Source of the DNA: Flaviflexus massiliensis | GTDB lineage: Bacteria; Actinomycetota; Actinomycetes; Actinomycetales; Actinomycetaceae | Length of the DNA: 64,000 nt | Assembly: GCF_001375495.1 (NCBI RefSeq) | Contig: NZ_LN831056.1 | Span: 62,001-126,000 of the forward strand | Direction of reading: 5' to 3' | Part shown: piece by piece, positions 6,373 through 38,200 of the stretch | Layout: each line of letters begins with the position of its first letter | How positions within the stretch are numbered: position 1 is the stretch's first letter | Program-made: the position numbers and the translations under genes | The notes under the pieces: model-generated | The model's input: the letters and a program-made list of their open reading frames with translations, nothing else | Database searches by the model: none | What the model was told of the DNA's origin: nothing

Positions 6373-7778
6373 CCCCTATCTTTTCTGTCAAGGGTTATGA
6401 GGCTACTTTGGTTGGCCCGGTTTCGTAGAAAGTGCCATCGCGAAGCATCGCAAACATCACCGCAACGCGTCGATGGGCTAGGGCGATGACAGCCTGGTTG
6501 TGACGTTTACCAGCAAGACGTTTCTTTTCATAGTAATTTCGCGAAATAGGGTCTGCCCGCAGTGAGGCAAATGCTGAAAGAAACATCGCTCGTTTCAGGC
6601 GTTTATTGCCCGTGTGTGAGACTGTTTCAGACTTTATCGAGGTCCCCGATTGCCGGGTCCTGGGTGTCAGCCCTGCATATGAGGCAAGATGAGCAGCAGT
6701 GGCGAATTCTTTGCCGGCAAGTTCTGAAATAGTCACCGCAGCCGTCCTGACCCCAACACCGGGCATCGAGGTCAGGACCTGGTAAAGAGGGTGTTTAGTC
6801 ACCAGCGCCTCAATGTGGTGTTCAACATCGGCCCGTTGACGATACAGCCCTTCCAGCGTGCTGGTCAGATGGGGAATCACTGTCGCCGCCGCGTTGGTGC
6901 CGGTCACCGTGACCGTTTGAGTGCCCAAAGCTTCGATGATTTCGGCTGCCCATACTTGCCAACGACGGGCACCGTGCTTCTTCAGTTTCGCTCCGACGCG
7001 GGCTTTTCCGGCCTTCTTCAACGCCTGCGGAACAGGCCAGGCCTGAAGTACCGCCAAAATAGCAGGATGATCCAACCGTGGCCCAATGATTTGTTCCAGT
7101 CCTGGATGGATTTGGGTGAACAGCCCGCGAACACGATTGCGCGTTTGAGTAATCTGACGAGCCAGATCATCATCAAACCCGGTGAGCATTCCCAGTTCTG
7201 CCTCGTTCTCATCCACCCGCCGAAGAGTTCTGAGAGTATGCGGCATAGTGCGAGCTGCTTCAGCAATGATGTAGGCATCCCGCTGGTCCGTTTTGGCATT
7301 ACCCGGATACAAATCAGCAATTCTTCGCATCGCTAGCCCTGGAAGATAAGCGATAGTGATGCCTAAATCTTGAGCCACTGCCACTGCAAGTGCACCGATG
7401 GTCGCAGGCTGATCTACGACCGCCAACACCCGCCCTTGACCGGTCAGCTGCTTGTAAATTTCTTGAAGTTTCGTTTCATCGTTAGGAAGCGAGTGGGAGT
7501 AGATCTGCTGGCCGATGCTGTTGACAGCTGTTCCCAGTGATCTGTTTTTCCCACATCGATGCCCAGCCAAATATCAAAGTGTTGAGGTTCCATGACGTGT
7601 CGCCTTCGAAGTAGAAAAACCGTGTGTTAAATCGTTGGCTTCTGGTGGCAAACACCTCTCGTCTTACACCCACGTTACGACAGGCATCTTCTGGTGCCAC
7701 GCCCCTGATCAGCAATCACGAGTGTGCCTGTCCGACCCCGGTGACAACACCCCCCCGGATCATTTAAAAGACAGGGGA
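6373..7778 (-). mobile_element. IS1111-type element (IS110 family)
   Basis: The stretch is bracketed by an 11/12 inverted repeat, CCCCTATCTTTT at 6373-6384 and AAAAGACAGGGG at 7767-7778, enclosing one IS110-family transposase gene. Subterminal inverted repeats of about this length are typical of the IS1111 subgroup, while other IS110 elements lack them. True ends probably lie several bases outside the repeats and cannot be fixed without an empty site. Non-coding DNA of about 180 bases before the transposase, and the hairpin-bearing DNA after it, are candidate locations for the bridge RNA that guides these recombinases. Confidence 0.55.
6395..7593 (-). pseudogene. IS110-family transposase, N-terminal frameshift
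   Basis: A DEDD-type serine recombinase of the IS110 family. From the ATG at 7593 the frame reads MEPQHFDIWLGIDVGKTDHW, which carries the first catalytic aspartate (GIDVGK). The rest of the protein (TAVNSIGQQIYSH onward) continues in the next frame. One G missing from a GGG run (plus-strand CCC, 7533-7535) explains the shift. The downstream part has the expected NAKTDQRDAY catalytic segment and the C-terminal transposase-20 domain (TSMPGVGVRTAAVTISEL; SYAGLTP; KRLKRAMFLSA). A shorter frame starting at 7570 lacks the first aspartate, so the protein is inactive unless the shift is programmed or a sequencing error. Confidence 0.8.
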
Positions 7779-7865: not shown

Positions 7866-8201
7866 ATGGAGAATGGAGTCATGCACAAGGGACGCCGCTA
7901 CAAGGCTGAAGAGAAAGCCGCTGCAGTCAGGATGGTGCGTACCCTCCGTGCCGAGCTTGGTACGAGCCAAGGAACGACATCGCGCGTCGCAGAACAGCTC
8001 GGCTACGGGGTTGAGTCGGTACGAGCGTGGGTGCGCCAAGCTGACATCGATGACGGAGTCAAAGCCGCAGTCACGACCGACGATCAAACACGAGTGCGAG
8101 AACTCGAGCAAGAGGTGCGTGAGCTCAAGCGCGCGAATGAAATCTTGAAACGGGCCGCGTCTTTCTTCGGGGCGGAGCTCGACCGCCAACATCGGAACTA
8201 G
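7866..8201 (+). CDS. IS3-family transposase OrfA
   Basis: A 111-residue DNA-binding protein with a helix-turn-helix at about residues 15-60 (AEEKAAAVRMVRTL...VAEQLGYGVESVRAWVRQ). A leucine-zipper coiled coil (RVRELEQEVRELKRANEILKRA) follows, as in IS3 OrfA proteins. Its TAG overlaps the GTG of orfB by one base, the usual arrangement for producing an OrfAB fusion by -1 frameshifting. It may still be made but cannot support transposition alone. Confidence 0.75.
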   Translation: MENGVMHKGRRYKAEEKAAAVRMVRTLRAELGTSQGTTSRVAEQLGYGVESVRAWVRQADIDDGVKAAVTTDDQTRVRELEQEVRELKRANEILKRAASFFGAELDRQHRN

Positions 8202-9121
8202 TGCGGTTTATTAACGCGAATAAGGACGATATCGTCGCTGGTCGGCGGCTCGGGGTCGAGCGCATCTGCAAAGTATTGCAGGTGGCCCCGTCTACGTATT
8301 ACGCCGCGAACGGCAGGCCAGCATCAGCCCGGCAAATTCGGGATGCGGAGGTCGCGCCACGGCTGCTTGAAATCTGAGAGGCGAACTACTGCGTGTATGG
8401 GGTGCGCAAGCTCTGGAAAGCCGCGAAACGTGCTGGCATCGAGATCGGTCGTGACCAGGTCACAAGGCTCATGAAGATTCTCGAGATTGAAGGGGTGCGT
8501 CGCGAGAAACGGCACAAGACCACGAAGCCTGATTCGAAAGCACCACGGCACCCCGATCTCGTGAACCGCGTATTCAGTGCTGCCGCGCCGAACCAGTTGT
8601 GGGTGACGGATTTGACGTTCGTGCCGACCTGGCAGGGCGTCGCTTACGTCTGCTTCACCATTGACGCGTTCAGTCGCGCGATTGTGGGATGGCGGTGTGC
8701 ATCGAACATGAAAACCGGGACGGTGCTTGATGCGATCGAGATGGCCCGCTGGTCACGGGGCAGGCATCTTCCAGGCCTGCGTTGCCACAGCGATGCGGGC
8801 AGCCAATTCACGTCGATTCGTTACGGTGAGCGTCTTGCTGAGATCGGAGCGACGCCCTCGATCGGGACCGTTGGTGACAGCTATGACAATGCCCTCGTTG
8901 AGACGGTGAACGGCTATTACAAGGCTGAGCTTGTGCGCGGGCCCGCCAAACCGGGGCCGTGGAAAACGGTCGATGATCTCGAGCTCGCGACACTGGGCTG
9001 GGTGCACTGGCACAACACGAAACGGCTCCACGGCTACCTCGGTGATGTGCCACCGTTCGAGTACGAGGAATCGTTCTATGCTGGGGTTACCAGTGCCAAA
9101 GAACTGGTAGAAATCAAATGA
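8201..9121 (+). pseudogene. IS3-family transposase OrfB with internal stop
   Basis: This encodes the rve-type integrase core: N-terminal HTH_21-like region, then VTDLTFV, CHSDAGSQFTS and DNALVETVNGYYKAEL supplying the D, D and E of the catalytic triad. The frame from the GTG at 8201 is interrupted by TGA at 8375-8377 (reading LLEI-stop-EANYCVYGV), where related proteins have an amino acid before E-A-N-Y. A single-base change from TGG would explain it. The piece after the stop, from about 8393, retains all three catalytic residues but lacks the N-terminal helper domain. Confidence 0.75.
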
Positions 9122-9174: not shown

Positions 9175-9424
9175 AGAAGTTTGCGCTTCTACGTAGCCGG
9201 CGCGCGATATTGCGTGCTCAGGACGTTACCGGAGAGCCTTACGAAATTGAGAGACGACCGGTTGGTTCGCCCGCATTCTCCAGCACGAATACGATCACCT
9301 GCACGACACTCTCTACGTCGACCGGCTCACCGGAGACGATGCTGCAACGGTTTCGAGAATCGTCCGCGAACGCTCCTGGGGCCGCCCGGGGCTGGCATGG
9401 ATGCCCAAGTTGCCACCGAGTTAA
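9175..9424 (+). pseudogene. Peptide deformylase C-terminal fragment
   Basis: Only the last third of a deformylase is present. One frame reads RAQDVTGEPYEIE; after a frame change near 9252 the next reads GWFARILQHEYDHLHDTLYV, followed by DRLTGDDAATVSRI and a stop at 9422-9424. HEYDH is the family's metal-binding HExxH motif, and GE-P-x-E-x-E...GWFARILQHE is the normal order. The part carrying the GxGLAAxQ and EGCLS motifs is missing. It starts about 20 bases after the IS3 right end, so that element probably truncated it. Confidence 0.7.
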
Positions 9425-9544: not shown

Positions 9545-9580
9545 AGGCAGGCTACTTAGTCCGGCCTATGTAGCCTGCCT
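9545..9580 (-). terminator. Terminator of the Tm-1/TIM-barrel operon
   Basis: Perfect 11-base arms, AGGCAGGCTAC and GTAGCCTGCCT, with a 14-base loop. It lies 28 bases beyond the stop of the last gene of the minus-strand operon. Confidence 0.65.
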
Positions 9581-9607: not shown

Positions 9608-10459
9608 CTACTTACGCAGTGGCGCCGCCTTGAATGCTGCCGTCGCCTCTTGGAGGGGTTCCTCCACGGGAATCCGCTCCGCACTCGATGCACCGAGGAA
9701 TCCGACGGCTTGTGAATGCTCGTACGCATAGACGGTGTCTTCGGGGTAAGCAATAGCGCCTCCGTGACAGAAGACCATTACATCCGGGTTCTCAGCCCGT
9801 GCAGCGTCGCCAATCTCATCGACGAGTCGGCACGCGTTAGCCAAGTCCTCTTCCTTGGACATTGTTGACCCAATCGAGCCCCCACGTGTGAGGCCCATGT
9901 GTGCAATAACAACGTCGAGGCCGGCCTCACCTACCATGGCACCTTCTTCAGGACGGAACGCATAGCCCATCGTGAACAAGCCAAGATCTTTGGCGATCTT
10001 GAGAGCCTCCAACTCCTTGCCATAGCCCATTCCGGTGGTCTCCAACTCTTGACGAAACCTGCTGTCCCAATCAATGAGTCCAACGGTCGGAAAATTCATG
10101 ACACCAGAGAAGCCAAGCCTCTTCAGCTCTTCCAAAAACACAGGCATCTGCCGTGTTGGATCTGTCCCACAGATTCCACCGATTACTGGAGCTTCTTTGA
10201 CTATTGGCAGAACCGTTCGGCTACCGAGTTCGATAACAATGTCGTTCGCATCCCCATAAGGCATAAGCCCGGCTAGAGATCCGTGGCCATCCATTCGGTA
10301 CCTTCCGGAATTGTATACGCCGATAAGATCAGCGCCGCCCTTTTCAGCAAACTTTGCCGATATCCCAGTACCGGCTCCGACAATAACGACCGGGCGCCCA
10401 TTCTCAATTTCCTTATTTAGTCTTGTGACAACTTCATCGCGGGTGTACTGAATTGACAT
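9608..10459 (-). CDS. PEP-hydrolase-like TIM-barrel protein (copy 1)
   Basis: A 283-residue member of the TIM-barrel family annotated as phosphoenolpyruvate hydrolase-like, related to the C-terminal half of plant Tm-1. Visible features are a glycine-rich start (VIVGAGTGISAKFAEKGGADLIGVYNSG with a gap to GLMPYGDAN), PVIGGICGTDP, the segment GFSGVMNFPTVGLIDW, IAHMGLTRGG and a C-terminal CHGGAI...GFLGASSAERIP, consistent with phosphate-loop positions of a barrel. Its ATG follows the upstream gene's stop after one base, with GGAAGG in that gene's tail as ribosome site. The reaction catalysed by this family is not established, so the enzyme name is provisional. Confidence 0.8.
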   Translation of the reverse strand: MSIQYTRDEVVTRLNKEIENGRPVVIVGAGTGISAKFAEKGGADLIGVYNSGRYRMDGHGSLAGLMPYGDANDIVIELGSRTVLPIVKEAPVIGGICGTDPTRQMPVFLEELKRLGFSGVMNFPTVGLIDWDSRFRQELETTGMGYGKELEALKIAKDLGLFTMGYAFRPEEGAMVGEAGLDVVIAHMGLTRGGSIGSTMSKEEDLANACRLVDEIGDAARAENPDVMVFCHGGAIAYPEDTVYAYEHSQAVGFLGASSAERIPVEEPLQEATAAFKAAPLRK

Positions 10460-10460
10460 A

Positions 10461-11231
10461 TTAGGAACCTTCCTTCTTTACTTTGTTTTCTTTGTATGAC
10501 TGGACAGCAGCACTGATGCCCTGAATTACCGGCGTTGTCTCGAGTGCGGACCCGCCGAGGAATCCGTCAGCACCGGAAGCTTCGAGGGCATCACGGACGG
10601 AATCTGGATCACTGAGGAGTCCACCATGAATGAGAGTAAGCGCATCTGGATTCTCTTCTCGGACGACATCATTCATCCGAGCAAGGAGGGTATGCGCTTG
10701 CTGAATTTCTTCGACGTCGCGTGATGGGCTAGTAATTCCAAGCATCAGACCCACATGGCTCGCTCCAGTGGCAGCCATCTTGCGCGCCTCTTCTTCATTC
10801 CACGCCCAACCGAGACAGAGCATTTCTCGTTCAACCGCAAGCTTGGCTAACTTCAACTCCATCGAATATCCCAAGCCCGCAAGCTCAAGATGTTCTCTGA
10901 GCTCACCGGAGTAAATTCCAACGAATGGCTCATTCGTTACCCCAGCAACACCACTACTCTTGAGTTCATCAACGAGTTGGGGCAGTCTTTCGCGCCTGTC
11001 GTGTGCTCCCACCCCTGCAATAACTGGAACATCTCCGGCAACTGCAAGGATCTCCGGGAGCGCCGACCTGACGAGTTCATTTGGGTCGTCATATGGCAGA
11101 AAGGCAAGTGCGGAGGGTAGGCCCGCCGCTCGGTAGATCGCTGTCGAATAGCAAGCGAGAAGATCTACACCGCCTGCCACAGCTCCGGCTGCAGTGAGAC
11201 CACACCCTACCCCTGCCGCAACGATGCTCAT
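10461..11231 (-). CDS. PEP-hydrolase-like TIM-barrel protein (copy 2)
   Basis: A 256-residue paralogue of its downstream neighbour. It shares the pattern of barrel strands: GVDLLACYSTAIYR, LPYDDPNELV, VPVIAGVGAHD, GVAGVTNEPFVGIYSG, HVGLMLGITSPS and LIHGGLLSDPDSV...GFLGGSALETTP. The ATG at 11231 is chosen because it overlaps the upstream stop as ATGA and has GGGAG six bases before; an in-frame TTG at 11243 is less likely. The overlap implies coupled translation with the Tm-1-like gene. Divergence between the two barrels suggests distinct substrates or a heteromeric enzyme rather than recent duplication. Confidence 0.8.
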   Translation of the reverse strand: MSIVAAGVGCGLTAAGAVAGGVDLLACYSTAIYRAAGLPSALAFLPYDDPNELVRSALPEILAVAGDVPVIAGVGAHDRRERLPQLVDELKSSGVAGVTNEPFVGIYSGELREHLELAGLGYSMELKLAKLAVEREMLCLGWAWNEEEARKMAATGASHVGLMLGITSPSRDVEEIQQAHTLLARMNDVVREENPDALTLIHGGLLSDPDSVRDALEASGADGFLGGSALETTPVIQGISAAVQSYKENKVKKEGS

Positions 11232-12472
11232 TTCTTCTCCCAAAGCTTCGTAAACTCAGCCAGGACAGCATCCGTAAACGTTGTGCTATTGATGGGCGCA
11301 TCTACTTCGACGATGGGGATGTCATCCCGGAGCCCGGCACGAATCTCGTCAAACAGAGCACCATCAGCAATTGGGTCGTAGTATGGTTGCCCTTCCTCTC
11401 CGAGTGCCGAGAGCCCTCTGAGAGGGATAACGACAACCGTTGGGCCTGTAGCTATGTTGGCCTTCTGCGTGAATATTTTGCCAAGTGCCGTACTCTCATC
11501 GATATTCGTCCGGCAGATAGTCACAGCTGAGTTATGAACATGCACTCGCCGTTCGGGAACCTGGAACTCTTTGGGAACCGTGTGTTCTGCGCCAAAGTTG
11601 ATGACTTCCAGGGCCCCCGGCACCAGAACTTGCGGGATCCCTGCAAGCCCAGCCGCTTCCATTCTGTTTGGACCGGCGGTCAGAACGCCACCGACAAGCT
11701 CATCTGTAAGTTCACTTGTCGTCAAGTCAATGACAGCATCAACAAGGTTGTCACTGACAAGGCCCTCCATCGCGCGGCCTCCAGCCCCGGTAGCGTGAAA
11801 AACAGTTGTCTCAAACCCTCGAGATTCGAGTCCAGCCTGCACTGCCATGACAGCCGGGGTAGTCACACCAAACATGCTGATCGCAACGAGGGGCTGACCT
11901 GACTCTTCAATGCTGGAGTCATCGGCATAACCTTCCGCCATACCTGCAGCTGCTCTCGAGGCATTCCTCAAAACCCTGCGAGAGATTCGATTGAGGCCAG
12001 CAATGTCTGTTACCGAATACATGAGTGAAATATCGCGGGTACCAACATAAGGCGTGACATCGCCACTCGCCATTGTCGACACAAGTACCTTGGGAACTCC
12101 AACAGGGAGAACCTGCATCGCCCTACCGATAACGGACGAGCCGGATGACCCACCAAAGCCGAGGACGGCCCCGATATTTCCTTCGTGATTCAACCGTTCC
12201 AATACTATTGCCAGGCCTTTAGCCATGGCATCGAGCGCCCGTGCTCGGGCACTGCCCTGCTCACCACCGCGCCGCAGTTCGTGGATGTCCTCCCCGGCAA
12301 GCCCTGCCAGTTCACTTGGTCCCACGCTCACCGGTACAGCAGAAGACTCTGTCTCGAATACACCAATATTGATGACTTTCCAGGTTGCACCAACCTTTTC
12401 CAGTTCATCAACGACGAAACAGACCTCAGCTTCTTTGGTGTCAATCGTCCCAATTACAATTACGTCTCCCAT
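11228..12472 (-). CDS. Tm-1-like ATP-binding protein (UPF0261)
   Basis: A 414-residue protein of the UPF0261/Tm-1 family. The start VIVIGTIDTKEAEVCFVVDE is the family signature, followed by GAVLGFGGSSGSS (nucleotide-binding glycine loop), VSTMASGDVTPYVGTRDI and FHATGAGGRAMEGL. In plants the homologous domain of tomato Tm-1 binds ATP and is fused to a TIM barrel. Here the two halves are separate genes, translated in order. Of two adjacent ATG codons the second (12472) is better spaced (five bases) from GAGGTG. It is the first gene of a three-gene operon and is divergent from the MocR regulator. Confidence 0.85.
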   Translation of the reverse strand: MGDVIVIGTIDTKEAEVCFVVDELEKVGATWKVINIGVFETESSAVPVSVGPSELAGLAGEDIHELRRGGEQGSARARALDAMAKGLAIVLERLNHEGNIGAVLGFGGSSGSSVIGRAMQVLPVGVPKVLVSTMASGDVTPYVGTRDISLMYSVTDIAGLNRISRRVLRNASRAAAGMAEGYADDSSIEESGQPLVAISMFGVTTPAVMAVQAGLESRGFETTVFHATGAGGRAMEGLVSDNLVDAVIDLTTSELTDELVGGVLTAGPNRMEAAGLAGIPQVLVPGALEVINFGAEHTVPKEFQVPERRVHVHNSAVTICRTNIDESTALGKIFTQKANIATGPTVVVIPLRGLSALGEEGQPYYDPIADGALFDEIRAGLRDDIPIVEVDAPINSTTFTDAVLAEFTKLWEKK

Positions 12473-12636
12473 CATTCACCTCTTTGTGTTGGGGTTTCTC
12501 AAACTCTCCCCGGATTTCACTACTAAACCAATGACCACTTAAGACTAAGTGGCAATGGTCGAGTCCAATTCACACCGATAGGATGGAACTCACGATCTCA
12601 AATAGGGGGCGCAGATGAATTCGAGTGGAGTGGACT
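12473..12636. promoter_or_regulatory. Divergent control region with inverted repeat
   Basis: This gap holds both promoters of the Tm-1-like operon and the MocR gene. CCACTTA-AGAC-TAAGTGG (12535-12552) is a perfect 7+7 inverted repeat, flanked by CCAATG and CAATGG that extend the symmetry imperfectly. Its position between divergent genes fits an operator for the MocR protein, which usually autoregulates and controls the adjacent operon. Confidence 0.4.
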
Positions 12637-14049
12637 GTGTCAGACCGGATTTCAGGTAGCAGGCTCGCTCGCCAACTCGCAGGGTGGGATGGCAAGGATG
12701 GTGCACTGCACACGCTTCTAGCTCACGCAATCCGTGAGTTGATTCGAAGCGGCGCCATTGCTCGGGCAACCACGCTCCCGTCACAGCGCGAACTAGCGCA
12801 GGCGCTAGCAGTCAGCAGAACTACTGTCGGCCATGCCTATCAGGAACTGGGCGATGAGGGATGGATCTCAACTCATCACGGTTCTGGAACTCGAGTACGA
12901 ACCACGGCATTACGCTCTGGTCCGCTGGCTGAGGACGATCGATTAGGTACCTACGCCATACCATCAGAATCATTTGATTTAAGTAGCGGCGTCCTTTCAA
13001 CCTCGCCTTTATTGCGGCGGGTGTTGCGCAGCAATTGGGACCAAGATCTTCGCCGGTTATCGTCAAACGATCGCTTCATGCCTTGGGGGATCAATGAGCT
13101 TCGCGTTGCAGTGGCTCACTACTATGCAGAGGTCAATACTCCTACCGAGCCCGACCAAGTACTCGCAACAAACGGTTCACACCATGCACTGACGCTTCTT
13201 GTCTCATGCTTACTGGAACCTGGCGATACCGTGCTGGTTGAAGACCCTACCTATCGCGGTGCCCTTGATGTTTTTAGTCGTCGCGGAGTAAATGTCGTCG
13301 GCATAGCATGTGATGACGACGGACCTATTCCAAGTGAACTGATCGCAGCAATCCGTAAGCACACGCCGCGAATGATTTATACGATTCCAACAGCACACAA
13401 CGTCACCGGAATTACTTGGTCCCCACGGCGCAGAGAACAGATTGCCGACAGTATTAGACAATTTGGGGTTCCCCTCCTCGATGACGGTTCAACAGCTGAC
13501 CTACATTCCGGCCCCCACCCCGGTCATCTAGCCTCACTACTGCCCGCGGAACTGTCGATCACGATCGGTTCACTGACAAAGTTATTTTGGTCCGGTCTGC
13601 GTGTGGGATGGATACGTGCCACCGAGCCCGTATTGAAGGCCGCTCTAAATGCACGTGTCACAAGCGACCTAGCCGGTTCCATTCCATCACAAGTTCTCAC
13701 AAGCGCATGTTTGCCTATTGCTAATGATGCACGCACGTTGCGGAGAAAAGAATTAGGTCATACGCGAACACTCGCCACATCACTGATCAAGGACTGGTTA
13801 CCGACATGGGAGTTTGACGAATCCCGAGGAGGCGCGTGCCTCTGGATCAACACAAAGGTCAATTCAGTCCAACTTGCCTCCCGTCTCCGCCGGAACAACA
13901 TTCTAATCGTGCCCGGTCCCGATTTTTCTCCATGTGACAACTGGCAGACACATGTCCGAATCCCTTTGGGGGATCCAGGCCTGCTCGAGGAAGCAATACC
14001 CGCAATAAGCAAAACCGTTGGAATTTTAAATTTTGACGAGGATATGTGA
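12637..14049 (+). CDS. MocR/GntR-type regulator with aminotransferase fold
   Basis: A 470-residue regulator. Residues about 15-85 form a GntR winged helix (ALHTLLAHAIRELIRSG, LPSQRELAQALAVSRTTVGHAYQELGDEGWI). Residues about 110-465 form a fold-type I aminotransferase domain with SLTKLFWSGLRVGW, where K315 is the PLP-binding lysine, and YTIPTAHNVTG. The GTG at 12637 is preferred because GGAG lies six bases upstream. MocR proteins sense PLP-linked or amine ligands and usually regulate the divergent neighbour. That makes the Tm-1/TIM-barrel operon the likely target and suggests an amino- or amine-containing inducer. Confidence 0.88.
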   Translation: MSDRISGSRLARQLAGWDGKDGALHTLLAHAIRELIRSGAIARATTLPSQRELAQALAVSRTTVGHAYQELGDEGWISTHHGSGTRVRTTALRSGPLAEDDRLGTYAIPSESFDLSSGVLSTSPLLRRVLRSNWDQDLRRLSSNDRFMPWGINELRVAVAHYYAEVNTPTEPDQVLATNGSHHALTLLVSCLLEPGDTVLVEDPTYRGALDVFSRRGVNVVGIACDDDGPIPSELIAAIRKHTPRMIYTIPTAHNVTGITWSPRRREQIADSIRQFGVPLLDDGSTADLHSGPHPGHLASLLPAELSITIGSLTKLFWSGLRVGWIRATEPVLKAALNARVTSDLAGSIPSQVLTSACLPIANDARTLRRKELGHTRTLATSLIKDWLPTWEFDESRGGACLWINTKVNSVQLASRLRRNNILIVPGPDFSPCDNWQTHVRIPLGDPGLLEEAIPAISKTVGILNFDEDM

Positions 14050-14509: not shown

Positions 14510-15397
14510 TCAACGCCCGAGCAGGCTGCTCCGCGTGGACTGCCTCGAACTCAACGGGAGGCACGTGCCCGATCTCGCCATGAAGACGGCGATGGTGTAC
14601 CAATCGACCCACTCCGCCATCGCGACCTCGACATGCGACACATCCCGCCACGGCCCGTGATTCCGGACCAACTCAGCCTTGAACAACGAGTTCAAAGCCT
14701 CCGCCATCGCGTTGTCATACGAGTCACCACGGGACCCGACCGACGCGACAGCATCCTCCACCGCGAGTCGCTCCGCGTAGCGCACGGCACGATACTGAAC
14801 TCCACGGTCGCTGTGATAGACCAGACCGGACAGATCCTCACCATCACGCCGACGTGTCCAGATCCCCATCTCCAGCGCATCGATCGCCAACGCCGTGTAC
14901 AACCGCGTTGACACCTGCCAGCCCACGATCCGAGGCGAGAACACATCCAGGACGAACGCGACGTACACCCATCCGGCGAACGTCCGCACGTACGTAATAT
15001 CCGCGACCCACAACTGATTGACCGTCTCTGCCGTGAAGTCACGATTGACGAGATCCGCAGGCCTGTCCGTCTCCGGTGCCGGCTTCGTCGTCCGGGGCCC
15101 CTTGGCTCGGCTCACGCCGCGGAGTCCCGCCGTCCTCATCAGCCGCTCCACGGTGCACCAGGCTACGTCACGGCCCTGTCTGCGTAGTTCGGCATGGACC
15201 TTCCGCGCTCCGTAGACGCCGTAGCTCTCCTTATGCACCTGTGTGATCTCCTCTGTCAGCTCCGCAACCCACCGGCGCCTCGGTGAAGGCTTGCGGGTGC
15301 GGTGGGCGTAGTAGCTGCTCGAGCCGATCTGCACCACCCTACAGATCGGCTCGACCCCGTGCTCATCCCTGTGCGCGTCGATGAACGCGCACATCAC
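14510..15397 (-). pseudogene. IS3-family transposase OrfB with C-terminal frameshift
   Basis: The frame contains an HTH_21 region (SYGVYGARKVHAELRRQGRDV) and the rve core with VADITYV, YHSDRGVQY and DNAMAEALNSLFKAEL providing D, D and E. Near 14597 it leaves the expected frame: VDWYTIAVFMARSG replaces what the next frame gives as DWYNHRRLHGEIGHVPPVEF, the normal conserved C-terminus. Loss of one A on the minus strand (tacaac to tacac) explains it. Because the triad is intact but the C-terminal region is scrambled, activity is doubtful. Confidence 0.75.
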
Positions 15398-15720
15398 CGC
15401 GAGGGGCGGTCGAGCTCCGCCGCGAAGAAAGCCGAGGCTTGCCCCAGGATCGTGTTCGCACGCCTGAGCTCGCGGTTCTCCCGTTCAAGCTCCGCCATCC
15501 GAGCCGCGTCTTCCAACGTAGTACCCGGCCTGAAGCCTTCATCAACCTCGGCCTTCTTCACCCAGGTACGCAGCGCTTCGGGGTGGACACCGAGTTGCTC
15601 GCCGATCCGATTGAACGCGCCCCTGCGAGCTTCGGGATCTTTGCGCGGATCGATCGCCATCCTCGTTGCTCGCTCGCGTAGCTCGTCGGAACACTTTCGT
15701 GGTGCGACCATGCCGCCCAT
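15394..15720 (-). CDS. IS3-family transposase OrfA
   Basis: A 108-residue protein with the OrfA helix-turn-helix (CSDELRERATRMAID...IGEQLGVHPEALRTWVKKAEV) and a coiled coil (AELERENRELRRANTILGQA). It overlaps orfB by four bases, the usual IS3 arrangement for -1 frameshift fusion. It has no visible lesion, but its partner is frameshifted. Confidence 0.75.
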   Translation of the reverse strand: MGGMVAPRKCSDELRERATRMAIDPRKDPEARRGAFNRIGEQLGVHPEALRTWVKKAEVDEGFRPGTTLEDAARMAELERENRELRRANTILGQASAFFAAELDRPSR

Positions 15721-20106: not shown

Positions 20107-20496
20107 AAATGCCACCTCTTATTAAAATAAACCCTGCCAATTCCGGAGAATGGCAGGGAGCTATGACCTTATTCTAGTCCCGTTCGGCCAGAACGTCAAA
20201 TGACTTGCGTCCCGTTGCTGGCAATTGAAGTGCCCTCGTTGAGCCCTGAGATAAGCCACTGTGCCCTTTCGTCGGTGCCACAACTATGGCTATCTCACTA
20301 CCCACGCCCAAGGAGTTTGTGTAGTCCAGTCTTATCTGTCGTCCCTTGCTCTCGGTGTCTCGGCCAGAGCCCTCACAATCCCTGATCTCACTGTGCCGGT
20401 TTGATAGGTCGGCGGTGTCTGCTCAGCGAGCTGGCTCGACGGGACGACCCGGTCGATCTCTCTGACTGTCGGGGACGACCCCGTGGGAGATCGATT
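20107..20496. other. Intergenic, no feature seen
   Basis: Divergent gap between the NYN gene and the antiporter gene. It must contain both promoters but I see no distinctive repeat or coding frame. Confidence 0.4.
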
Positions 20497-29254: not shown

Positions 29255-32200
29255 TTGAAACGAGCGTTGACGCTACTCGCGTCCTTTATTCTGGCTTTCA
29301 CCGTTGCCACTCCCATTGCTCAGGCCGATGAGCTGGGATTGAGTGGAACGGGAACAAGCGAAGATCCCTACCAAATTGCAACCGCGGAAGAGCTTGATGC
29401 GTTTGCGGATTCTGTCAACGATGCGAGTGACGATGGGCTCGGGGGAGCAACGACTTCCTCCCACGCCAAGCTTGTTTCGGATATTGACTACAACTCTCAG
29501 GTGTTCACCGGGATCGAGACCTTCTCCGGTGTGCTCGATGGTGATGGCTACACAATCTCAAACATTGTTTACGGCCCGAGCTCGGCAGCTGGGACTCTTG
29601 GCTTCGTCCGGAACCTGACTGGCGGCACCATCACCAACCTTGGCATCGATGGTGTGACGGGTACGAGCGAGAACAGCCAGAACGTGGCGGGCCTCGTTCT
29701 GAAGGCAACAAAGGGCGCCACGGTAACCGGCAACTCCCTCACCGACCTCAACCTCACGACCGGTGCGCCCTACGCGGGTGGTCTCGCATACGAAGCTGTC
29801 GAAGGTGCCGAGGTGTCGAACAACTATGTTCAAGGCTCCATTACTGCCGCTCGCTACGCTGCCGGCATTGCCGGTTACGCGCGCTACGACGTGTCTTTGG
29901 AAAACAACCTGGTTGACACCGACATTGCTGTCACCGGCGCACTCGTGCGCAGTGCGTTTGGGCTTGCTTTCCAGGGCAGCTCGGCTGAATACGTTAACAA
30001 GGGTGTCACCGAGGTCTACAACAACGTCATCCTTGGTGGCGAACTGACCTGGAACAAGAACGTCGCAACCGAGACTCAGAACGCGAACCGTGTTGTGTCC
30101 CTCCCGCACAGCTCCGGAGGACTCGACACCGGACTGCTCGTTGCTGGGAACCTCGCAAGCGATGCTGTGACCATTGATGGTGCGGTCCCGAGCGACTCGG
30201 TTCTCAACGGCGATACCGTTGCTGCCGACGAGCTAACTCAGGAAACCTACCAGGGACTGGGCTGGGATTTTGAAAACCAGTGGACCTGGAGTGATGAACT
30301 CTCACGCCCCATCCCTACAGCATTCGCTGCCGGTGAGGGTGAAGAACCCACCGAAGAACCTTCGCAAGAACCTTCGGAAGAGCCCACCGAAGAGCCTACG
30401 GAAGAACCAACGGTAGAACCCACTGATGAACCCACCGAGGAGCCGGTAGCTCCGATCGCTGGACTCGAAGGGGAAGGAACTGAAGATGCTCCCTTCCTCA
30501 TTGGTTCCGCTTCCGACCTCGATACTCTTACTGCGGCCCTGAACGAGGCTGCAACGAGTGCACCCGGCACGCTTGAGTCCTCTCACGTCCTTCTGACCGC
30601 AGATATTGACTATGCGGGGGAGACATTTGTTGGCATCGATACCTTCACCGGTGTCCTTGACGGTGATGGGCACACGATCTCGAACATTTCGTACGGGCCA
30701 AGCGCTTCCTCGAAGTGGCTAGGTCTGATCCGCAACCTCACCGGAGGCACCGTCACTGATCTTGGACTGGATGCGGTCACCGCGATTTCCACCGACGGTC
30801 AGGTCGTGGCCGGTATCGCCGTGAAGGCAAACGGTGGCGCCACTATCGAAGGCAACCGGGTCACCAATATCGAACTTCAAACCGCTCAGGATTACGCGGG
30901 TGGCCTCGTCTACGAATCTGCTGATGGTGTCGATATTCTCAACAACCAGGTTTCTGGCGAGATCACGTCTGCACGCTACCCCTCCGCTATCACGGGCTAT
31001 GCTCGCTACGACGTTGATGTGGAACGCAACCACATTGATGCGACCATCACCTCGACGGGAGATCGGGCACTCGGCGGCCTGGTGCTCGGATACCAGGGCA
31101 ATTCCGCATCTGGCGCAACCCGTGGAGCAACGAACCTGCGAAGCAATGCGCTCGCGGGCGGCAGCGTGGCATGGGATGAGGAGGCGCTGACCGGAGCGCC
31201 CGGTGCGCACCGCGTTGTTGGTGCGCCCCACTCGAGCGGCTACCTCGTTCTGACGAACAACCTTGCCGCTGACACTGTCACCGTGGGTGGCGAAGTGCCA
31301 GCATCCTCACCCAACGAGGGTGACACAACCCCGGCATCCGCCTTCTCGGAGAAGGAGACCTATGCGGGGATCGGCTGGGATTTCACTGCCGACTGGGCAT
31401 GGGATGAGGAAGCATCGCAGCCAGTCCCGGCAGCCTTCCTCCCCGATGGCCTCGACGAGCCAGGAGAAGAAGAACAGCTCGCCATTGATGGTCTTGAAGG
31501 GCACGGAACGGAGCAGGAACCGTTCCTGGTAGGCACGGCCGATGAGCTCGCGACCTACGTGACCGCCGTCAACGAGTCCGTGGAATCCGGTATCGGCAAC
31601 CTCGAATCGGGTCACGTGCAGTTGACCGCCGATATTGATTTTGGTGGACGCACCCACCCCGGCATCACCCGCATCACGGGAAGCTTCGATGGCAATGGGC
31701 ACCGGATCACCAACATTGTTTACGGCCCAGGGGCGAACTCGAACGAGCTTGGATTCATCCGCGCGCTCGATGGCGGTGAACTGAGGAACCTGACCATCGA
31801 TGGTCTCGTTGTCGAAGAGACCGGTGACTTCCGGGTTGCTGGCTTTGTCCTCGTCGCCAACAACCATGCCGTCATCGACGGCAACTCGCTGACGAATGCT
31901 CAGCTCACCTCAGGCAACCAGTACGTGGCGGGCCTAGCCGTCACGGCAGAGTACGAGGCGACCATCACCAACAACTGGGTGCACGGCAACTTCACCTCCA
32001 CCCGCTACGGCTCCGCCACCGTCGGCTACGGCCGCCACGGTGTCACGGTGAAGAACAACCTCGTGGACGCCACCGTTGTGGCAACGGGCAACCGAGCCCA
32101 CGCCGGCCTTCTGCTCGGCTACATGGGTGGTACCGGCGGCGGTGAGGGCGGCAGTGTTCTCACCAACAACGTTGTCTACGGCGGGCTTGTTGACTGGCTC

Positions 32201-35200
32201 GACGGTAAGGATGCTGTCATCTCCTCCATCGTCCTCGGCCAGTACGGCAATGGCGGCTGGCAGGTTGAGAACAACCTCGCAAACGAGAACATTCTCGTTG
32301 GTGGTCAGAAGGTGGAAGGGCCGGGCGAAAACAATGCGAACGGCACCGCGACCTCCCTCGCCGACCTGCAAACCCAATCAACCTATGAAGACCTCGGCTG
32401 GGACTTTGCGAACTCGTGGGTGTGGAATGAGGAGCTTTCCCACCCGGTTCCGGTACGTGCTGTCGTACCGGGCGATCTCACCGAGCACCCGGGTGCTGGG
32501 GGAGAAATCGAAGGACTCGACGGTCGTGGAACCGAAGCGGATCCGTTCCTCATCGGTTCAGCAGCTGACTTGAACCTCATGGCTGCCGAGTTGAACGCGA
32601 ACCCGCTCGGGCTCAACACCTCCCACTTTGCGCTCTCGACAAACATCGACTTCGCCGGTGGCACCTTTGTTGGTATCGACCAGTTCCGCGGAGTCCTCGA
32701 CGGCAATGGATACAAGATCTACAACCTCACCTACGGGCCCTCGGAAACGAGCGATGAACGGGCGCTGATCCGCCAGCTTGATGGCGGTACGGTCGAGAAC
32801 CTGACAATCGATGGGGTCGTGACCCACATCTCCCAGGCCTCCCAGGTTTCGGCGCTGGTTTCCACGGCCTCCAATGGCGCCATCATCGACGGCAACACGA
32901 TCATCAATGCCGACCTGTCGACCGGAGCCCAGTACGTGGCCGGCCTCGCCGCCAACGCTCAGAACGGTGTTCAGGTCACGAACAACTGGGTGGAGGGCAC
33001 GTTCCGTTCGGCACGTTACCCGGCCGCAGTCGTTGGCTATGGTCGCTATGGCACGACGATCCAGAACAACCTGGTGGATGCAAATGTGTCCTCGCGCGGC
33101 AACCGCGCACACGGCGGCATGATCCTCTCCTTCATGGGCAGCTTCTCGCAGGACCAGGACATGGGCATTGCAACCGGCAACGTCATCAAGGGTGGTCGCG
33201 TCCACTGGAGCGGTGGCGCAGGCGGCATCCTCGCCGGTCGCGTGCTCGGCCAGTATGCCAACGGTGGCTGGCTCGTTGCCAGCAACCTGGTCAGCGACCA
33301 GGTTCAGCTCGGCAACTCCGTCCCCACCGAACCGGGTGCTGCAAACGAGCAGGGCACGAACCGGACCGTGGAGGAACTCTCCACCCAGCAGACCTACCTT
33401 GATCTCGGATGGGACTTCGAGCACGCCTGGGTGTGGGATGAGGGGCGGGGCCACCCGGTTCCTCAGCGTTCCTTCCTGTTTGGTTCCGGAACTGAGGCTC
33501 AGCCGTTCACGATCGACACCCCGGAAGACCTTGAGTTCCTGGCTGAGGCCATCAACTCCGGTGACGAGTCGATGCTCGGCGGAAAGCACTTCGCCATCAC
33601 AGCCGACCTGGACTTCGAGGGCAGGGATCCCTTCCCGGGCCTCGACCGCTTCGACGGGATTGTTGATGGGCGTAACCACACGATCAGCAACATCACCCTT
33701 TCGGCAAGCGACTCCTCGCACGATCGAGCACTGATCCGTGACCTGACCGGCACTATGTCCAACCTCGCATTCGACAACGTTGAGGTCGAGGGTGGGGAAG
33801 GCTCCGTCGCTGTCCTTGCCGTTACGGCAGGGGACGGGGCTGACATTCGGTCCATCGCCATCCACAACACGACACTCGTCGCTCCGAAGGCAGAGGTTGC
33901 GGGCGGTCTCGTTGCACACGCTTCCGGCACAGCCACGATCGATCAGAACCTCATCGACATCACCATCGAGGGTGGAAACACCGTGGGCGGTGTTGTCGGC
34001 ACGGCAGCAGATTCTGCAACCGTCTCGAAGAACCTCGTGACCGCCACCATCACCCGCACCGTTGCCGGCTCGGGAGGCGCGGGACTCGTGGTCGGTGACC
34101 CGCAGGGCTCAGCCACAATCACCGGCAACGTTGTCCTTGGCGCGAGCGTTGACTATGAGGGTGAGAGCGATGAGTTTGCTGGCCGCATCCTCGGCAACAC
34201 CGATGGTGATAGCTGGGTCGCTGATTCCAACCTTGCCTTCACCGACACTTTGATCCTTGGTGAGACCGTCACCGGTCCCGGATACAAGAATCAGCACGGT
34301 GCGGATGCGGATGCTGCGATGCTCGCAGACAAGGCCACCTACGAAGAGCTGGGCTGGGACTTTGCCGAGCACTGGCGCTGGGACGCCGAATCCGGGCTGC
34401 CGATCGTCAAGTACGTGCTTCCGGAGGAGATGCCGAACCGCATCACCAACACCTTCTACGGTGACCCGGAAACCCGCCGTGCCTTCACCTGGTACCAGGA
34501 CTCGATCACCGATCCGGCTTCCGCTACCGTTCGCATGTCCACCGACCCGGAGTTCACGGAAGAAACCACGGTTGATGCGGAGCACCGCACCGCAACCCAC
34601 GGTGAAACCGTCTACCAGGCCGTTGCCACCGACCTTGAGCCGGGAGTGACCTACTACTACAAGGTGGGTGACTCGGCCGAGGAAATCTGGTCCGAGACCG
34701 GTACGTTTGTCACGGCCGATGGGGAGAGCGACTTTACGTTCATTGACCTCACCGACACGCAGGCGAAGGGACCGGCGGAGGCGGACATGTCCGCCCACAC
34801 GATGAGCCAGGCACTGGAAACCCTGCCGGAGGCAGAGTTTATGGTCCACAACGGCGACGTCGTACAGGACTCCAATCCCGAACAGGACTGGGTTGACCTG
34901 CTCGGTGCAGCACAGGATTCCCTGCTCGCCACCACGATCGCCCCTGCCTCGGGCAACCACGACATGCATCCTCAGACCTTCGTTGACCACTTCATGCTCG
35001 AACATCCAAACGAGCAGAATACAGAAACGGGAGCCTACTACTCGTACACCTACAACGGTGCGCACTTCATGGTTCTCAACACCAACGAGGACGAAGAAAA
35101 GTCGATCACCGATGAGCAGCTGGCCTGGCTCGAACAGGACGCCGCCCAGGCTCGCGAGAACGGTGCCCAGTGGACGATCCTTGTCATGCACAAGGGCCTC

Positions 35201-38200
35201 TATACGGCCGGCAACCACGCCGAAGATCCCGACATTGTGGAGATGAGGAAGGAACTCGTTCCGGTCATCGACCGCCTCGAAATCGACCTTGTTCTCCAGG
35301 GCCACGACCACTACTACTCGCGCACCAAGGTGCTGTCCTACGACGAGAACGGCACCGAGCTCGTCAGCCCCGTGGAAACCACAAGGTTCACCGAGGTTGT
35401 CAACGGCAAGCGCTACGAGTACGCGGTCAACCCGGACGGCACGATCTACTACATGCCGAACACGGCCGGAGCCAAGCACTACCGGCAGATCGGGGAAACC
35501 GAATCCTTCATCCTCGAAGCGTTCCTCGACCTGTTTGACCGGCTCGGCACGCCCCGCCAGGGCACAGTCCAAAGCTTCACCGGCATCAATGTCACCGACA
35601 ACAGACTGACCGTGGAGGTGTACCACATCTCCGGAACCGGTACGCCAGTCCTCGCTGAGGCCTTCGGTATCGACCGTCAAACCGAAGCCGTCGCGGCCCT
35701 CATTGACGCGCTTCCCGATGCTGACGACGTGACCGAAGAGCATGCGGAGCAGATCGAGCAGGCACGCGCAGCGGTTGATTCACTGCCGCGCTCGGCTCTC
35801 GATATTCTCCCCAACCTCGATCGCTTGCTCGCGGCCGAGAGGGCGCTCGCGGAACTCCAGGGTCTCGTGTCCCCCGAAGGGGATGAGATTATGTGGCGCG
35901 ACAGCGCCGCCACCTCCCGTGAGGCCATCACCGTCCGCAATGATTCGAACAAGGATTTCGAGAACGCTCCGGTGAGGCTCACGATCGGCAACACGCCCGA
36001 TGTTGGCTCCGATACGGTGACGATTGCGGGTGAAGATGGGAAGGTGCTCAGTCACGAAGTTGAGTCCTGGAACCCCGGCTCCACCTCGATCATCTGGGTC
36101 AAGGTCCCGGTCCTCGCAGCTCACGACATCACCTCCCTGTGGGCCTACTACGGTGGCGAAGGCCTCGGCAACGACCCGGCCGATGTGTGGTCGCAGTATG
36201 CGCTCGTCGACCACCTCATGGAACCGGTCGCCGAGGGCGAAAGTCGTACCGACTCGACCGGACGTAACACCGGTACCGTCCACGGTGGTGACCTCGAGGT
36301 CACGGACTCCGAGCAGGGCACGAAGCAGACCCGCTTCGACGGCGCGAAGATCCAGTACCCGGGCAACATCGGTGGCGGCTACTCGCAACTCGCGGTCTCG
36401 ACCGTGTACTCCTTTACCGAGGAGAACCTATTGGCCTCGAGCACGACCGGGGGAGCAGTTGTTGGTAAGCAGCGGCCCACGGACTCGGCCGACCCCGCCT
36501 ACGCGCAGGTGGTCGCGGTCGATGGGTCAACGCACACGAGATACAACTCAAACGCACACACGGTGGAGGTGCCTGCCGATGGCAAGCCCCACCTCGTGAC
36601 CCAAACCTACGATGGCATGACCCTCGCGATCTTCGTTGATGGTGTCCAGCAGCACGAGGCCATGGTCGAGCGGGTTCCGACAAACTCGGATCGCACCGTC
36701 CAGACCACCATCGGTGACCTCTACACGGACGACAACTCGGCGTATGCACCCTTCCATGGGCACATTGACGACGTCCAGATCGCCGGATTCCCCTTCATCC
36801 CCGAATACGAGGCATTCCGCTACGAGAACTACTTCGGTGACGCTGTCACCTACGGGGACCGTCACGAGAAGGACGCACTCTCACTCGTCATCGGTTCCCC
36901 CGCGAACGGCACCACCCACGAAGCCGGACTCATCCCCGTCTCCGGAACCGTCTCCGAACGATCCGTGCTCACCGCACAGATCGGTGAGGACACGATCTTC
37001 GAGGGCGAGATCCCGGCCGGCCAGTTCACGGTCGACGTGCCCATCAACCCGGCAGGCGACCAAGAGATCACCTTCACCGCCACCTCCCTCGACGAGGTGC
37101 GCACTGGGACCGACGCGATCAGCGTGACGATCACCGATACGACCGCACCGAACCAGCCGATTGTCTCCGATGATTCGGCCACGCAGGCAGGTCCCGATGC
37201 GGAGGTGACACTCTCGGCCACGCCGGACACGGCTGACCTGGAAAAGGTCACCGCCCAGTTCTTCGCCAATGAAACCGTTGAACTGACGGATGACAACGTG
37301 ACGGTGCGCGAAGGCAGCACGACTGATCGCACGCCCGAGAACATCACGCCAGGCTCGGGTGCCCCCGCCGCTCTTCACCCCGCGACCGTGGGAGAGAACG
37401 AGAATCCCTACCAGATCTACGAGATCGAAGTTGGGGAGGCATCCGAATACCACCTGACGTGGTCGGGAACGGGCGATGATCGCATGGTGTCCGCCTGGGT
37501 CTACGACCATGAGACAGCCGAATGGCTGTTGAAGGACGAGGGTGCGGACGCTGATGGTGGGGAAGTCTCTCTCGACATCACCGCCCAGGCTTCCGAGAAC
37601 GCTGTCCGCGACGGCAAGATCACGGTGCTCGTGTGGCGTGGCATGACCTCTCTCCCATGGGGTGACGACCACGTGTACGAGCAGTACCCCGACGGGGCGA
37701 ACTTTGATTGGGCATTCAACCACGTACCCGACACCCAGCTCTATGCTGAGGCGACGCCATGGATGATGAACGACATGTTCAACTACATCGTGGCCGATGC
37801 TGACGAACGCAAGACTGAGCTTGTCATCCAGGCAGGCGACTGGGTCAACCGCGAGTACCTGTTCGATGAATACCAGTGGCGCACGGTCGATCCGTCCGCC
37901 CAAGCCATGGAACAGGCCGGCATCCCCATCATGATCTCCTGGGGCAACCACGACTACTCTGAGGACCGCAACGGCCGCGTCATGCTCCCGAAGTACTTCC
38001 CGATGGAACGCTTCGAAGCAAGCACGGAAGGTAGCCAGTTCGAGTTCGGTGGCAGCTACGACATCGACAACTTCTATTACACGAGTAATATCGAAGGCTC
38101 GAAGCTCCTCATCCTGTCTCTTGGCTACTGGTCATCCAACACCGATGACGACCCGGGTATTACCTGGGCGCAGGAAGTAATCGAATCACACCCCGACCAC

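Follow-up and report, generated by a model that had tools for sequence, protein, structure and literature searches.

Introduction

UPF0261 proteins and PEP-hydrolase-like TIM barrels are widespread and are the source of a plant virus-resistance gene. As the UPF0261-TBST gene pair, they co-occur and co-evolve in bacteria, archaea, and fungi (Yang et al. 2016, PMC5028733), and the plant fusion of UPF0261 and barrel has likewise been published (PMC5028733). In tomato Tm-1 (3wrv, 3wrw, 3wrx, and 3wry), one UPF0261 domain and one PEP-hydrolase-like barrel form a single chain, and work on the full-length protein suggests that it serves some purpose apart from virus resistance (PMC5028733). In the searchable literature, we found no published reaction for the UPF0261-barrel pair.

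Among bacterial proteins, a described relative of the barrels is Mll9387 of Mesorhizobium loti (2P10, "putative phosphonopyruvate hydrolase"), whose function is putative only and which we take to belong to the PEP/pyruvate superfamily. The PEP_hydrolase name of PF09370 comes from annotation only. For UPF0261, the nearest bacterial structure is 9MPY, that is Saro_1862 of Novosphingobium aromaticivorans with acetovanillone bound. Acetovanillone catabolism in this bacterium is reportedly started by the single-component kinase MarK, which may or may not be Saro_1862.

Herein, we analyzed a cassette in the window (the whole DNA stretch under analysis, 64,000 nucleotides) that carries one UPF0261 gene and two barrel genes, B1 and B2, opposite a MocR gene. 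Both of its families are those of the UPF0261-TBST pair, which at the sampled loci is usually one coupled operon, but the cassette adds a second, divergent barrel, and its trio has a separate evolutionary history. The pair itself is known and widespread; as a variant of it, the two-barrel form is rare. A sequence-only reading had put forward a candidate undescribed system here; since the pair has already been described (PMC5028733), this term does not apply to the cassette, although the two-barrel form is unusual.

Organization of the cassette

The four genes were found at the positions previously read from the sequence, with Pfam domains that confirm their assignment (Table 1).

Table 1. Coordinates of the cassette features in the window
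Feature	Position	Strand	Evidence
UPF0261 (Tm-1-like ATP-binding domain) protein, 415 aa	11228..12475	-	PF06792 + PF23189
Barrel B1, divergent PEP-hydrolase-like TIM barrel of "NEPF" type, 256 aa	10461..11231	-	PF09370
Barrel B2, ordinary PEP-hydrolase-like TIM barrel, 283 aa	9608..10459	-	PF09370, 2p10 match
MocR-type (GntR + aminotransferase-like) regulator, 474 aa	12625..14049	+	Pfam, NCBIfam
Divergent intergenic region with candidate operator inside	12476..12624	no strand	inverted repeat
Strong hairpin after B2, possible terminator	9545..9580	-	folding

The two Pfam domains of the UPF0261 protein scored 183 and 267 bits, both above the cut-off, and together spanned the whole protein. B2 and B1 matched PF09370 with 358 and 215 bits, respectively (cut-off 33.8). 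The UPF0261 and barrel genes are adjacent, on the same strand, and coupled, forming an operon pair. Coupling through ATGA had been proposed for both barrels. It holds for the overlap between the UPF0261 stop and the B1 start, for which 11231 is the best position, but not for the B1/B2 junction, where a single base separates stop from start (TAA-T-ATG). As expected for Tm-1 halves encoded as separate genes, UPF0261, B1, and B2 are three distinct reading frames and show no Tm-1-style fusion. Considering that there are two barrels to one UPF0261, instead of one each, the cassette was filed as a variant of the UPF0261-TBST pair. The barrels are only 33% identical over 264 columns, indicating that they are not recent copies of each other, in line with the earlier view of them as non-identical.

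Approximately 27 nt past B2 lies a hairpin in a region with a folding energy of -40.4 kcal/mol (z -5.3). It has no clear T-run and is absent from the consensus terminator scan. Because the hairpin is strong but lacks this run, the single terminator proposed for the operon is a likely, unproven candidate.

Genomic setting

The cassette is flanked by an IS110 gene (6395-7570) and IS3-type genes (7866-9121 and 14510-15720), in agreement with the suggestion of accessory DNA amid IS elements. The GC3 of the four cassette genes was 0.49-0.56, whereas the majority of the window's large genes, though not every one, had 0.60-0.77; in the copies of the congener (G098), it was 0.62-0.74. The congener's cassette has different neighboring genes from those in the window. 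The IS flanks, the low GC3, and the differing neighbors fit acquisition as a unit. No further pathway enzyme or transporter was found next to the cassette in the window.

Several other features of the window were recorded. A gene remnant beside the IS3 element, at 9263-9421 (+), corresponds to the tail of peptide deformylase (PF01327), and an ALIL pseudoknot (RF01497, an IS3-type frameshift element) lies at 15320-15433 (-), inside the IS3 copy that adjoins the cassette. A guanidine-II (mini-ykkC) riboswitch match of 40.4 bits was located at 20436-20483 (+). A 3540-aa frame at 29255-39877 (+), with purple acid phosphatase-like, metallophosphatase, Laminin G-like, and Rib domains, encodes a giant surface-type protein.

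The ordinary UPF0261-barrel pair

A second operon, of the ordinary type with UPF0261 and a single barrel, is present elsewhere in the window's genome. A scan across a collection of genome contigs with UPF0261 alone gave one locus. Among the sampled loci, at least 84 of the 117 distinct barrels had a same-strand UPF0261 gene within 400 bp, a rough lower bound from a count that includes loci with cut ends. Ordinary pairs were also present on plasmids, where they adjoin sugar ABC transporters, cupins, Gfo/Idh oxidoreductases, and GntR and TetR regulators, and nothing on these plasmids exceeded 36% identity to B1. Viral scans returned one barrel and no UPF0261. At a Haloterrigena locus (L099:5722-8215, +), a cupin gene lies between the barrel and UPF0261 genes and is coupled to them.

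Two-barrel cassettes share a common descent

The two-barrel cassette was found in four genomes, which represent two bacterial families and show two gene orders. Its genes do co-occur elsewhere, contrary to what would have refuted the earlier reading. In the congener, the layout including MocR is identical, and UPF0261, B1, B2, and MocR are 80%, 72%, 91%, and 71-73% identical to those of the window, respectively. In a Propionibacteriaceae MAG (L007), the corresponding values are 67%, 60%, 82%, and 46-47%, with the divergent MocR gene ~2 kb away. B1 has therefore evolved faster than B2 toward both genomes. In another genus of the family (G057), the order is B2-B1-UPF0261, the identity is ~40%, and no MocR gene adjoins. 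In the family survey, 18 of 213 genomes had any barrel and 3 of 213 the two-barrel form. Samples at the order, phylum, and class levels yielded no further case of the four-member B1 clade, and a B1-profile search at the class level yielded no further B1.

In a tree of 84 barrels, the four cassette B1s formed one clade (support 98), and three barrels from another family of the phylum were their sisters (support 98). In a tree of 90 UPF0261 proteins, the four cassette members also came together (support 95, inner forks 99). All supports are SH-aLRT only. The branching order was alike in the B1 and UPF0261 trees, and the cassette members were separate from the ordinary paralogs in their own genomes. 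The branch leading to G057 is long, which makes its placement less sure. The dN values were low, and dS was high or saturated. The cassette trio has been inherited together as a unit, and B1, the third component beside the UPF0261/B2 pair, is old and evolves separately. The cassette is an old, mobile, MocR-linked three-gene variant of the widespread pair.

Residue pattern of barrel B1

To compare the barrels, we used the 36 polar positions with a fixation of at least 95% across 48 ordinary barrels, in B2 numbering. On average, B2s kept 30.7 of these positions, B1s 17.8, the sisters of B1 20.7, and the fused sensor barrels 21.0. In 7/7 B1-type barrels, the invariant H187 was replaced by M, T99 by H, and T125 by F, the last within the NEPF motif. 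Y49, R55, N72, D100, N122, E140, E149, H232, S258, and E261 were kept, E266 was gone, and R262 was gone in part. The signature of B1 (GAHD and NEPF) and the replacements recur in two families and in a further, more distant group within the phylum, and set these barrels apart from all the ordinary ones sampled.

This distribution bears on the idea that B1 has the same activity as B2 and is retained because it raises dosage or slightly broadens the substrate range, with the cassette as a paralogous copy of the operon. The host does have an ordinary UPF0261-barrel operon as well, and the domain families are alike. However, a signature that crosses two families and a more distant group, unlike all sampled ordinary barrels, is hard to match with redundancy, which we regard as improbable.

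B1 could also be a non-catalytic partner that stabilizes or tunes B2 in a mixed B1-B2 oligomer, leaving UPF0261 and B2 as the only enzymes. Its faster evolution, an N-terminal helix that is missing in 3/4 cassettes, and the loss of E266 and partly of R262 would suit such a role, as would the B2-type barrel that stands alongside B1 in all four cassettes and in G619. But the core polar residues are kept, and every one of the seven B1-type barrels has T99H, H187M, and T125F, a better fit to a new function than to decay, and a non-catalytic B1 is on the whole unlikely.

A role for B1 as a ligand sensor, which senses the substrate and signals to MocR or UPF0261 through no DNA-binding part of its own, has parallels in AraC-fused barrels that lie opposite UPF0261-barrel operons in family members and in a sigma-54-fused barrel between UPF0261-barrel pairs in Terrarubrum. 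B1, however, was not grouped with the fused barrels in the tree and has no output domain. It keeps H232, which is replaced by Y or E in 6/6 AraC- or sigma-54-fused barrels, and the cassette already has a sensor in MocR. A sensor B1 thus appears quite improbable.

B1 looks like a reworked enzyme rather than a sensor or a dead copy: it retains H232, lost in the sensors, and has fixed replacements that are specific to it, a combination that speaks for altered catalysis. The catalytic roles of the named residues are putative, as judged from conservation. A tentative reading is that the cassette is a three-component UPF0261 system in which B1 gained a new active site, with a histidine moved between strand ends, for a catabolic step that the ordinary pair does not have, under a UPF0261-linked MocR subfamily.

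The AraC-fused barrels are themselves likely to be barrels turned into sensors. They were seen opposite and beside UPF0261-barrel operons at L037:8213-9376 (-) and L038:7017-8225 (+), and also in G079, G092, and G093, with H232 replaced by Y. On a Terrarubrum flagellatum plasmid (L103:11208-13058, -), a barrel is joined to a sigma-54 activator and a Fis HTH, between two UPF0261-barrel pairs.

The MocR regulator

The divergent, linked MocR that had been read from the sequence was confirmed: a winged HTH (GntR) and an aminotransferase-like domain were assigned by Pfam, and its gene is separated from that of UPF0261 by a 149-bp gap. YczR-type MocRs, the best NCBIfam match, have the same two domains but are yczE-linked, whereas the regulator of the window is UPF0261-linked and scored 354.5 bits against a YczR cut-off of 487.4, indicating a MocR-type protein that is not YczR. 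The gap contains an inverted repeat, CCACTTA-AGAC-TAAGTGG (12534-12551), that is partly kept in the congener and is a candidate operator.

Across eight genomes, the three cassette-linked MocRs (window, congener, and MAG) were mutually closer than the window's protein was to any other MocR. After these, the window's protein was closest to the MocR next to G057's ordinary pair (35%), and other long matches were ~28% identical. The mutual closeness of the cassette MocRs suggests a UPF0261-linked MocR subfamily. MocR regulators generally have inducers of the amino compound or PLP-adduct type. The amine or amino-acid inducer proposed for this cassette may apply, as only an inference from general MocR biology.

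Structural comparison and the relation to Tm-1

The closest solved structures of the UPF0261 protein were Tm-1 (3wrw/3wrx/3wry) and 9mpy. The UPF0261 part of Tm-1 is ~34% identical to that of the window; Saro_1862 has 36-37% identity and a full-length family match. As a hint to the substrate side, 9MPY demonstrates the binding of an aromatic ketone by a member of the UPF0261 family; it shows neither the reaction nor the substrate of the cassette. B2 and B1 fall in the same family as Mll9387 (274 and 118 bits, respectively), although B1 departs from this family at several otherwise invariant sites. The AlphaFold model of B1, made from two sequences, had a pLDDT of 53, with 2p10 as its best match (Z 9.8, rmsd 5.2 over 155 residues). 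That of UPF0261 was moderate (pLDDT 63; 3wrw, Z 23.5, rmsd 11.4 over 348). Considering that the models are poor and moderate, respectively, the active-site geometry was left unread. Matches of the N half of UPF0261 to UDP-GlcNAc 2-epimerase (Z ~12, ~150 residues) were set aside as fold resemblance only.

An antiviral or defense role, as in tomato Tm-1, would be in keeping with the homology between UPF0261 and the N-terminal Tm-1 half and with the IS-rich accessory setting. However, neither PADLOC nor PHROGs gave a match for the cassette, and the neighbors of its relatives are metabolic. We rejected this role on these grounds as barely credible.

Metabolic neighbors and proposed function

The operons of B1's sister barrels contain RuBisCO-like, TPI-like, MBL-fold, xylose-isomerase-like, and amidohydrolase_2 genes. 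One of these operons, in G619, has a B2-like barrel, an amidohydrolase, and a B1-type barrel in succession, and in G078, G205, and G206 the UPF0261-barrel pair occurs with amidohydrolase_2, RuBisCO-like, and MBL genes. Directly behind the MocR gene of the MAG cassette is an MBL gene, whose product is 46% identical to the MBL protein of a UPF0261/barrel/RuBisCO-like/amidohydrolase operon. No close relative of this MBL was found in the window's genome, and no RuBisCO-like gene in G057. The RuBisCO-like gene of the window's genome was considered as a pathway partner and dismissed, as it lies far off at an unrelated-looking locus and is not linked. RuBisCO-like proteins are known from apiose catabolism, as quoted in PMC6302742.

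Given these neighbors, a catabolic role is likely; of the earlier "catabolic or detoxifying" proposal, the first part stands, but nothing supports the second. Our main reading, to which we give a probability of about 0.45, is that the cassette is a mobile catabolic module in which UPF0261 and two non-equivalent barrels act on a carbonyl compound or a sugar-acid compound, with a substrate that is likely of the sugar-acid or the aromatic-ketone type. UPF0261 and B2 would represent the widespread pair, with B1 as a third component. UPF0261 would bind a nucleotide and a small carbonyl substrate and activate the latter, and B1 and B2, PEP/pyruvate-type TIM barrels by fold, may perform carbon-carbon cleavage or hydrolysis on the activated substrate or its product. 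The step of B1 would be different from, or later than, that of B2, because its active-site set was changed and not lost. MocR would turn on the operon in response to an amino compound linked to the substrate, or to the PLP adduct of that compound.

The ordinary pair and the reworked trio in one genome offer a natural comparison. The fixed changes of B1, the loss of H232 in the sensors, the linked MocR, and the catabolic neighbors point to the residues and substrate classes worth testing first.

A large putative catabolic region was also observed at L106:1-13743, with three PEP_hydrolase-like barrels and UPF0261. It further contains RuBisCO-like, TPI-like, MBL-fold, xylose-isomerase-like, and amidohydrolase_2 genes and a sugar ABC transporter.
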